Assembly: GCF_000794385.1 (NCBI RefSeq)
Contig: NZ_JTJB01000004.1
Coordinates: 1 to 60,144, forward strand
Source of the DNA: Thermus sp. 2.9
Lineage (GTDB): Bacteria; Deinococcota; Deinococci; Deinococcales; Thermaceae
Reading direction: 5' to 3'
DNA: 60,144 nucleotides
Part shown: positions 2,510 to 60,144 of the stretch, in pieces
Position numbering within the stretch: the first letter of the stretch is position 1
Layout of the letters: each line of letters opens with the position of its first letter
Position numbers and translations under genes: made by a program
The notes under the pieces: generated by a model
The model's database searches: none
Seen by the model: only the letters and a program-made list of their open reading frames with translations
Told to the model about the DNA's origin: nothing

Positions 2510-2998
2510 CCGGAGGAGGGCGCAGCGGAGCCCTTCTTCCGCCCGGAGGTGCCGGCAGGTGAGGCACATGCCCGTATCGGCCATGACACCTTGGCGCACG
2601 AGGCCCTCGAGGAGCCGCATGAGGGGAAGGAGGAGGGCCTTATGCTCCACCCCTCTTAGTACCTTTCGCATGGGGTCCAGGTAATCCCCCAGGGCCTCCG
2701 CCAGGCGCCTTCCCTCGGCGGTGGGGGTGAGGTGGAAGCGCCGCTTGTCCGTTGGGTCCTTTTCCCGAGCCAAAAGCCCCTTCCGCTCCAGGGCGCTTAG
2801 GGCCTCGCTCACCGTGGCCGGGGTGAGGGCGAGGAGGTGGGCCAGGTCCACCACCCCTTGGGGCCTTGCCGAAAGGTGAAGGAGGAGCTGGGCCTGGGTG
2901 GCGGAAAGGCTCAGGCGGTGGGCCTTTTGCGTGAGGAGGGCCCTTTCCGCCTGGGCCAGGCGCTCTAGGAGGAAGAGGAGCTTTTCCTCGGCGTCCAC
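2408..2998 (-). CDS. MarR-family regulator with C-terminal Cys motif; C-terminus probably frameshifted
   Basis: Residues 1-110 form a MarR winged helix, with recognition helix LTPATVSEALSALERKGLL and wing KDPTDKRRFHLT. An extension follows with CLTCRHLR and LRCALL. In the annotated frame the end reads APEDSASPAQ. One base inserted near 2488-2490 would instead give PEDLRLACPDHAP, a CP(D/E)H ending that completes a four-cysteine pattern I recall from some MarR relatives. So the last ~30 residues are likely out of frame. It starts at GTG 2998, nine bases after the P460 gene, and probably forms an autoregulated operon with it. The cysteines suggest sensing of redox state, metal or NO; this is inference. 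Confidence 0.75.
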   Translation of the reverse strand: MDAEEKLLFLLERLAQAERALLTQKAHRLSLSATQAQLLLHLSARPQGVVDLAHLLALTPATVSEALSALERKGLLAREKDPTDKRRFHLTPTAEGRRLAEALGDYLDPMRKVLRGVEHKALLLPLMRLLEGLVRQGVMADTGMCLTCRHLRAEEGLRCALLRLTLAPEDSASPAQTTPPLKLPYRVGLPLSTLRG

Positions 2999-3007
2999 CC
3001 CTTTAGC

Positions 3008-3490
3008 TTAGGGCCGGAAGGCGCTGAAGACGTAGTCGGTGTTGGCCGCTCCCTGGTGGCAGGCATGGCAGGCCTTGGGGTCAATGGCAAGGGGCTTCTT
3101 GTCGGGGCCGAAGGCGTAGTAGCCCCAGCCGCCCGTTTCCGGGTAGCGCCCGGGGTCTTTGACCATGACGCCGATGAGCTTCCGCGGGCCTTCCACGAGG
3201 GCGTTTCCTTCGGTCTTGGCCTCGAGGAGGTCAAAGACGATGACCGTGCCCTTGGGGAAGGCGGCCTTCTTGCCTTCCAGGTAGGTGGGAAGCCCCGTGG
3301 GGTTCACGTAGATGTGGTGCAGGCCTCCGAAGCTCTCGTAGAGGGGATGGCCCGGCCTGAGCTCCATACTCTTCACGTGGGGCCAAAGCCGGAAGCCCTC
3401 AGGGTAAGGAATGCCTTCTTGCCCAAAAGATAGGAGAAGCGCCAGCAGGACTAGCAAAATCCCCGCTTTCCCGGTTCCCGACCTCGCCAT
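3008..3490 (-). CDS. Cytochrome P460-family protein
   Basis: About 160 residues with an N-terminal signal segment (AGILLVLLALLLSFGQ), the P460 opening IPYPEGFRLWPHVKSMEL, HHIYVNP in the middle, and a C-terminal CHACH heme-attachment motif. Cytochrome P460 proteins are periplasmic mono-heme enzymes that oxidise hydroxylamine, and NO is one product; some relatives bind NO or nitrite. Beside nir and nar genes, detoxification of hydroxylamine or NO from incomplete denitrification is plausible. I chose ATG 3490, five bases after GGAGG, over the GTG two codons upstream. A clear promoter and a palindrome lie directly upstream, and a MarR gene follows. Confidence 0.8.
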   Translation of the reverse strand: MARSGTGKAGILLVLLALLLSFGQEGIPYPEGFRLWPHVKSMELRPGHPLYESFGGLHHIYVNPTGLPTYLEGKKAAFPKGTVIVFDLLEAKTEGNALVEGPRKLIGVMVKDPGRYPETGGWGYYAFGPDKKPLAIDPKACHACHQGAANTDYVFSAFRP

Positions 3491-3500
3491 AGCCACCTCC

Positions 3501-3513
3501 TTAGGACTCCTAA
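3501..3513. promoter_or_regulatory. Palindromic operator at P460 transcription start
   Basis: TTAGGACTCCTAA is a perfect 6-1-6 inverted repeat lying immediately downstream of the -10 box, covering the expected start of transcription. A bound repressor would block initiation. The MarR protein encoded in the same operon is the natural candidate. Confidence 0.6.
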
Positions 3514-3543
3514 ATAATACCGCCCCTATAATCCTCTTGTCAA
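3514..3543 (-). promoter_or_regulatory. Promoter of P460-marR operon
   Basis: On the minus strand TTGACA (3538-3543) is followed after 18 bases by TATTAT (3514-3519). These are near-consensus sigma-A hexamers ending 23 bases before the P460 start codon, with the palindrome in between. Confidence 0.7.
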
Positions 3544-3554
3544 GCCTAAAGGGG

Positions 3555-3899
3555 TTAGCGGGTTTCTAGGATCTCCTTCAGGGCCCAGGCGTTGTTGTAT
3601 CGCCTTTCCTTGGCGGCATAGAGGAGGGTAACGCGTCCTTCCCGGGCTAAACCCTTGAGCTTTTCCAGGTCGGGGTTCTCCTGCAATTCCTTTCGGTAGC
3701 GGGCAAGGAACTCGGGGTACTTGGCTGGATCGTGGCCGAACCAACGGCGCAGGGCCTGGGAAGGGGCAAGCCCCTTGGCCTACCAGTCCACCTGGGCTTT
3801 CTCCTTGGAAAGCCCTCGAGGCCAAAGCCGGTCCACCAGGACCCGCAGGCCGTCCTCGAGGGAGGGAGGGTCGTAGACCCGCTTCACCCTCAGATCCAT
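3555..3899 (-). pseudogene. DUF488 family protein with in-frame TAG
   Basis: Read through, this gives a complete ~114-residue DUF488 protein: [50 protein letters not shown] and NNAWALKEILE. These are the usual family landmarks at the usual length. A TAG at 3780-3782, after residue 39, sits where relatives have Trp or Leu (VDLWLKELAPS type), so TGG to TAG is the simplest cause. DUF488 function is poorly known; some members bind heme and are linked to nitrite or NO. The start overlaps the end of the upstream redoxin gene by ten bases, so the two were translationally coupled. Confidence 0.8.
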
Positions 3900-59477: not shown

Positions 59478-59552
59478 GGGGCGGTAGCTCAGAGGGAGAG
59501 CACCCGCCTTGCAAGCGGGAGGTCAGGGGTTCAAATCCCCTCCGCTCCACCA
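59478..59552 (+). tRNA. tRNA-Ala (anticodon UGC)
   Basis: A complete cloverleaf with encoded CCA. The acceptor stem GGGGCGG/CCGCTCC includes the G3-U70 pair that identifies alanine tRNAs. D arm GCTC/GAGC, anticodon stem CCCGC/GCGGG around loop CTTGCAA (anticodon TGC), T arm AGGGG/CCCCT with TTCAAAT loop. Confidence 0.97.
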
Positions 59553-59571
59553 GCTTCAGGACGCAAAGCTT

Positions 59572-59599
59572 CACCCCCCGGTAGCGTGGCCGGGGGGTG
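59572..59599 (+). terminator. Terminator after tRNA-Ala
   Basis: CACCCCCCGG and CCGGGGGGTG form a ten-base stem with an eight-base loop 19 bases after the tRNA, followed by GTTCTGTT. Confidence 0.7.
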
Positions 59600-59604
59600 G
59601 TTCT

Positions 59605-59625
59605 GTTAGCTTATGGTTAGCTTAT
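59605..59625. repeat. Two tandem copies of GTTAGCTTAT
   Basis: GTTAGCTTAT occurs at 59605-59614 and 59616-59625. The repeat ends immediately before the stop of the integrase-like remnant and might be an integrase arm site or a chance repeat. Confidence 0.6.
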
Positions 59626-59730
59626 CTAGGCCTGCCCTCGAGGCCCGGTCAGGTCCTCTGGGTCCAGGACCCAGCTCCGCCGCTCCTCCTGGAGGTGCCG
59701 GTAGACATTGAGGGTGATGATGTAGCGGGA
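59626..59730 (-). pseudogene. C-terminal remnant of a tyrosine-recombinase integrase
   Basis: On the minus strand the ~33 residues before the stop at 59626 read RYIITLNVYRHLQEERRSWV and then LDPEDL. TLNVYRHL resembles the segment with the catalytic Tyr at the end of phage-type integrases (TLDTYGHL type). A stop stands a few codons upstream and the rest is gone. Its position beside a tRNA 3' end fits a lost integrative element. The short length limits certainty. Confidence 0.5.
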
Positions 59731-59859
59731 CTACTCCGGGCTATTCCTTCTCCTGAGGGCCCCGCATCGTTTCCCCCGGCCTGGTGGCGGGAGGTGCTCA
59801 AGGAGGCCCTTGTCTCCTGGCAGCAACGGCTCTATCCCCCTGGCCTCGTTGGAACTTAA
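59722..59859 (+). other. Short open frame of unknown meaning between tRNA and transposase fragment
   Basis: One frame reads LLRAIPSPEGPASFPPAWWR then EVLKEALVSWQQRLYPP, ending at TAA 59857. It looks protein-like in composition but I recognise no family, and there is no clear start. It could be a fragment of the same lost element. The remaining bases to 59930 show no feature I can support. Confidence 0.3.
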
Positions 59860-59930
59860 GGGGGGGAAGGTCAGCAGAAGCCTCATGGGCTTGCCTTGCA
59901 AACCTCGTCTACGGTATACATCCTAGCGCC

Positions 59931-60144
59931 ATGGGCAAGCGCGGCTTTCCCCGGCGAGAACCGAGCCCCAAAGAGGTCCTCACCCACCGCCTCCGCCTCG
60001 CCCAGGAGGTGGCCCCTCCCACCCCCACGGGCCGAAGGGGCAGACCCTGGCGCTACCCCCACGCCCTCTACCTCGCCCTCCTCCTAGGCAAGTTACGCTT
60101 CGCGTGACCCGCGCCTTCTACAAGCTCACCTACCGGAAAACCGA
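59931..60144 (+). pseudogene. Transposase-like N-terminal fragment, frameshifted, cut by window end
   Basis: ATG 59931 opens MGKRGFPRREPSPKEVLTHR with RLAQEVAPPTPTGRRGRPWR and YPHALYLALLLGKLRF, resembling the start of DDE transposases in Thermus (short basic front, then GRRGRPWRYPHALYLALLL). The frame stops at 60105-60107, but the next frame carries on as VTLRVTRAFYKLTYRKT to the window edge, so one indel near 60090 is likely. The IS family cannot be fixed from this piece. Confidence 0.45.

Follow-up and report, generated by a model that had tools for sequence, protein, structure and literature searches.

The window analysed here is the whole of contig C4 (60,144 nt) of the 62-contig draft genome of Thermus sp. 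2.9, and it ends at position 60144 inside a repeated insertion sequence (IS). From the tRNA-Ala onwards, the contig end comprises the following features:

59478..59552, + strand: intact tRNA-Ala (anticodon TGC), the target gene of an integrative element (ARAGORN; Rfam RF00005, 73.9 bits)
59507..59552, + strand: half of the tRNA from anticodon loop to CCA, the attL core, corresponding to the 45-46 nt stretch that is duplicated at the far ends in relatives
59572..59599, no strand: terminator hairpin between tRNA and integrase, able to serve either convergent gene (folding; match on contig C35)
59605..59614, + strand: first GTTAGCTTAT unit, candidate arm-type integrase site, starting 53 nt past the tRNA end
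59616..59625, + strand: second GTTAGCTTAT unit, candidate arm-type integrase site, starting 64 nt past the tRNA end
59626..59718, - strand: tyrosine integrase gene, stop codon and last 30 codons (ITLNVYRH..GPRGQA), by homology
59719..59877, + strand: truncated 3' end of an IS, IS4/IS701-like judging by relatives, joined to the integrase tail
59886..60144, + strand: left part of a multicopy IS5-like IS, cut by the contig end; its copies share the start base

The original prediction had described a tRNA-Ala followed by a terminator, two repeat copies, an integrase-like C-terminus ending at the repeats, an orphan frame and the start of a transposase. All these parts were recovered. The tRNA is 100% identical over 75 nt to copies in genomes G007, G011, G012 and others. 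The hairpin at 59572-59599 has an 11-bp stem, and the folding energy of the 54-nt stretch is -30 kcal/mol (z = -3.73, equalled by none of 200 shuffles). The two GTTAGCTTAT units, 11 bp apart, are the only occurrences in the 60 kb of the window, even when one mismatch is allowed, and as single words they are a weak signal (5 of 100 shuffles reach two matches).

The integrase tail (59629-59718, - strand) is 87% identical to an integrase domain encoded on contig C35 of the same genome (E = 9.3e-10; 83.9% over 31 aa by tblastn) and aligns to residues 205-235 of that frame. A profile search of the tail had been proposed as a check. The 31-aa tail alone had no match in Pfam, whereas the homologous C35 frame matches PF00589 at 4.6e-30, and the N-terminal C35 frame, split off by a frameshift, matches Arm-DNA-bind_4 at 1.7e-07. 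The tail keeps the Y of VYRH, which from its place in the family we take to be the catalytic tyrosine. A tyrosine integrase gene beside a tRNA is thus represented by the tail in the window together with longer tRNA-adjacent homologues.

Integrase similarity ends at 59718 and IS similarity begins at the adjoining base, 59719, as after a deletion. The IS similarity extends to 59874-59877 in two copies in G022, and in a relative (L121) profiles of DDE_Tnp_1 and the IS4 family match upstream of the corresponding stretch. The orphan frame ending at 59859 had no match of its own in profile searches and shares 61% identity over 46 aa with the end of a relative's IS-borne frame. The IS5-like element starts at the base matching 59886 in the copies of this genome and of the genus; its transposase frame (ATG at 59931, stop at 60107), also without a profile match when searched alone, shares 79% identity over 57 aa with an IS5-like ORF. 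The original prediction had read the whole as the scar of an integrative element. The scar stands, but the transposase pieces are no part of the element's machinery and come from later insertion sequences. G022 has several copies of the IS fragment 59719-59877 (76-88% identity; G022:C13:22220-22374, G022:C7:32125-32256 and G022:C7:14752-14895), and a second full copy is absent from the genome of the window.

The layout behind the tRNA-Arg(TCT) of contig C35 is the same as that behind the tRNA-Ala of the window, with a longer, frameshifted integrase copy. Between the two loci the hairpin region (41/41 nt) and the repeats (21/21 nt) are identical; the tRNA halves match at only 35/46 positions and the first 11 nt at 5/11. 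The hairpins of C35 and of the tRNA-Arg end in G022 match at 33/41. Recombination over the identical hairpin and repeats might have placed a copy of the left end of this genome's tRNA-Arg element behind tRNA-Ala, with no integration there. The hairpin and repeats, more alike within this genome than the C35 hairpin is to that of G022, and the differing tRNA halves fit such an event. Yet the integrase tail differs from its C35 counterpart (87% protein identity), so copying, if any, was limited or old, and integration at tRNA-Ala is established for relatives (see below). We regard copying as unlikely. The C35 locus itself (L010, positions 306-1635) has its integrase broken by a frameshift near 1162, and a DDE transposase ORF (2813-3718) lies 1.2 kb beyond the integrase.

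Empty and occupied tRNA-Ala sites

The locus, with rpsB on one side of tRNA-Ala, is present in all 27 genomes of the genus. We compared 1,500 nt of downstream flank in each (592 nt in the genome of the window and 1,045 nt in G022). Rather than being identical in all relatives, the flanks range from empty to occupied. Integrase similarity was found in eight: that of the window (tail only), G005, G008, G009, G011, G016, G021 and G025, those of G008, G011 and G021 being distant (31-34% identical). G007, a close relative whose upstream flank is 98% identical over the 393-nt query, has an empty site: there, as in G013, a different terminator (short in G007) and an oxidoreductase gene follow soon after tRNA-Ala.

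The 3' half of tRNA-Ala is copied elsewhere, over 45-46 nt at 93-98% identity, in G008, G009, G016, G021, G023 and G025; further copies among relatives are shorter or weaker (87-94%). Two elements at tRNA-Ala have such a second copy downstream, at 7.4 kb in G009 and 20.2 kb in G023, and so do two at tRNA-Arg, at 13.2 kb in G026 and 13.3 kb in G005. In each of the four, the duplicated stretch begins at tRNA position 30 or 31; its end is the CCA for G026 and G023, and it continues for a further 15 nt in G005 and 58 nt in G009. A copy of the tRNA 3' end and of the tandem repeat, which the original prediction had suggested looking for beyond the contig, hence both exist at the far ends of relatives' elements. 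With the integrase similarity, these duplicated halves bear out its view of an integrative element that used or sat beside the tRNA gene, in this case by using it. The attL core at 59507..59552 was presumably brought in by the element. In G008 (G008:C1:913657-986334), about 72.6 kb separate tRNA-Ala from a copy of its 3' half (98%), and the two possibly bound a large island at the same site.

In the genome of the window we found neither a second copy of the tRNA-Ala 3' half nor the oxidoreductase gene of the empty-site right flank. We therefore see neither the far end nor the original right-hand flank, and since no duplicated tRNA 3' part was found at a far end in this genome, we file the object as a remnant and not as an element. 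The search for the lost right side also led to tRNA-Ser(GGA), but this lies on a separate contig, C34, neighboured by ORFs that resemble polysaccharide genes by eye. Among viral contigs no relatives were upheld by tblastn, and all matches in plasmid records were below 60% identity.

Position and role of the repeat pair

The spaced GTTAGCTTAT pair, exact or near-exact, has nine matches in 5 of the 27 genomes and none in a reversed control. In G026, and likewise in G005, the tRNA-Arg element carries one at both ends; two contigs of G009 (tRNA-Met) have one each, G022 has one, and the genome of the window has two, on C4 and C35. In the window, C35, G026 and G005, the left units start 53 and 64 nt past the tRNA end; at the tRNA-Met of G009, where the tRNA end was placed by hand, they start at 52 and 63 nt. 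At far ends, the units precede the tRNA copy by 124/113, 125/114 and 126/115 nt. The element of G023 has a different repeat sequence at the same left positions, 53 and 64, with a single one-mismatch unit at 128 on the right. In that at tRNA-Ala of G009, the left units stand at 49 and 62, accompanied by three more with one mismatch, and the right side has three units at 144, 131 and 121. Pairs thus occur 113-144 nt inside attR in G026, G005 and both G009 cases, and more weakly in G023.

To what extent is this position general? Our scan covered 49 integrase loci, 37 of them with a convergent tRNA no more than 200 nt away. Within the interval from integrase stop to tRNA, the top-scoring tandem repeat exceeds all 60 dinucleotide shuffles in 29 of the 37, although in two of the 29 (L089 and L092) the repeat is the terminator hairpin sequence and not arms; the other 8 of the 37 fail to exceed every shuffle. 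The repeat starts 47-54 nt past the tRNA end in 32 of the 36 loci with a detected repeat, a count in which the rows are not independent, several being near-identical copies across species, and in which the searched stretch of many loci spans just 60-85 nt, restricting the possible positions. Where the stretch is longer (99-179 nt), the start is likewise at 47-53. The 32 loci cover 10 anticodons and many repeat sequences. The exceptions are L014 (33), L073 (24), L089 (18) and L092 (20), and L014 nonetheless has degenerate arms at 53/64. By eye, a tandem pair also stands behind the integrase stop in three Meiothermus loci, and none was seen there in a distant deltaproteobacterial locus. A distant class of integrases (L034, L085, L086 and L087; 34-35% identical) adjoins a bare tRNA 3' half. 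Because a complete tRNA was not found beside the integrase end in these loci, the integrase of this class seems to lie at the other end of the element.

We considered the hairpin as a hallmark of the element and dropped it, its motif CAAARCTTNNCCCCCC being often away from tRNAs: with one mismatch allowed it has at least 43 matches in 6 genomes, and a tRNA is directly adjacent in 8 of the 30 loci examined. Terminators of the window's type also follow tRNA-Ala without a nearby integrase, G012, G003 and G020 being among the examples; the hairpin alone is therefore no element marker. One might go further and see in repeats and hairpin an ordinary host tRNA terminator, beside which the integrase tail stands by chance. 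The hairpins without integrase, and the 22 of 30 motif loci with no directly adjacent tRNA, would agree with this. The repeat pair would not, since it is missing from the reversed control and, where present, lies beside this integrase family or at a far end; moreover, the empty sites of G007 and G013 bear other terminators. We give this explanation almost no credence.

It is little more probable that the repeats are the att core, or a transposon end, instead of arm sites. They are indeed direct repeats at both ends of elements. However, in the two elements whose duplication ends cleanly at the CCA (G026 and G023), what is duplicated is the tRNA half, which lies 53 nt off the left pair and at least 113 nt off the right one, and between lineages the position of the repeats is constant while their sequence varies. 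Fixed spacing with changing sequence fits protein-binding sites that evolve with their protein. Integrases of the lambda and Tn916 types hold arm pairs with their N-terminal domain while the catalytic domain acts at the core. By analogy, we infer that the pair represents arm-type binding sites of the integrase. Both Arm-DNA-bind_4 and the repeat geometry are seen in relatives; the N-terminal part of the integrase is absent from the window. In our literature search, no paper combined Thermus, arm-type and integrative. The rule on arm sites, together with the use of one arm class for several tRNAs, is modestly new.

Arm classes and tRNA targets

According to the locus labels, arms of the GTTAGC type occur at Arg-TCT, Met-CAT and, in the window, Ala-TGC; those of the TGACCCCCA type at Ala-TGC, Arg-TCT and Arg-CCT; those of the CAAATRGCCC type at Ile-GAT and Val-CAC; and those of the GGTTGCAGTA type at Ala-TGC and Asn-GTT. 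An integrase tree of 33 of the 49 loci, hand-picked and hand-labelled, groups L013, L014 and L017 (98/94). L018 joins them in an open fork together with L016, which has another arm, and neither L033, a short row, nor the rows for tRNA-Arg(CCT) are resolved by the tree. As the tree groups by arm class just in part, arms may tend to follow the integrase lineage, a tendency and not a proven rule.

The anticodon stems of Ala-TGC and Arg-TCT are nearly alike (CCGCCTTGCAAGCGGG vs CCGCCTTCTAAGCGGT), so one integrase could use both tRNAs. We tentatively suggest, as a possibility we would not bet on, a two-part address: the arm pair at 47-54 nt would belong to the integrase lineage, and the 45-46 nt tRNA half would be an exchangeable cassette, such that a lineage could move between tRNAs with like anticodon stems and fossil ends could serve as partners for gaining a new tRNA half. 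This offers a testable proposal on how such integrases switch tRNA target. A precedent is that Int2 is reported to mobilise ICETh1 (tRNA-Ile) as well as ICETh2 (tRNA-Val) (PMC7693054).

A stretch of 2,307 bp is 99.2% identical between Meiothermus luteus (L198, 1-2307) and Thermus caliditerrae (L199, 1033-3339). The stretch comprises the end of an element, including its integrase and a tRNA-Met half, and diverges at the anticodon loop; its identity across two genera reflects either a recent transfer or assembly contamination.

The remnant left end and known elements

Taken together, we hold with high confidence that an ICETh2-like integrative element was once inserted in tRNA-Ala and that 59507-59718, with its presumed arm sites, is what survives of its left end (attL) after later decay through insertion sequences. 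The tyrosine integrase would have exchanged strands within the anticodon loop. With a new 3' half and a terminator both contributed by the element, the tRNA would have remained functional. The tandem GTTAGCTTAT units would have been arm-type binding sites some 100 bp from the exchange point, and a second arm pair would formerly have lain inside the far end. The IS4/IS701-like element probably came first and the IS5-like element next; together with a deletion, they would have removed the cargo, the far end and all of the integrase except its final 30 codons, so that what remains is an immobile fossil.

There is nothing unusual about the fossil itself, which is what an element of a known kind has left behind at a hotspot. 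Its interest lies in documenting a tRNA-Ala hotspot in Thermus with a clear mobile-element fossil, beyond the published tRNA-Ile and tRNA-Val cases compared here. In addition, the positional rule, an arm pair 47-54 nt past the tRNA end, could reveal remnants without any integrase.

The integrases of the Tn916/Tn1549 type and of lambda share the Arm-DNA-bind_4 domain with the Thermus family, and sequence matches in the PDB include 6emz (Int protein) and lambda Int (1z1g, 5j0n); we take 6emz to be a Tn1549-like Int. Those integrases have paired arm sites on either side of the core. In contrast, the Thermus elements, judging from their sequences, appear to have another arm-site sequence and to target tRNA anticodon loops.

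Within Thermus, ICETh1 of T. thermophilus HB27 occupies tRNA-Ile, spans 14,857 bp and has 47-bp direct repeats (PMC5365140). The insertion logic and size class are alike, but ICETh1 has genes for DNA donation, whereas the window retains no cargo.

ICETh2, from the same strain, is closer. It lies at tRNA-Val, measures 11.3 kb and carries Int2 and Ppol, with a tyrosine integrase beside the tRNA 3' end and a duplication of about 47 nt of that end (PMC7693054). The tRNA-Val class integrases are 55% identical to the C35 integrase, and the best-preserved relative of the window's element, in G026, has Prim-Pol and AAA_25 genes, comparable to Ppol and a helicase. The ICETh2-like traits were found through relatives only, in the integrase family tree and the 45-46 nt copies. 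The window differs from ICETh2 in its place at tRNA-Ala and in its repeat sequence, and it keeps only a fossil end whose cargo is lost.
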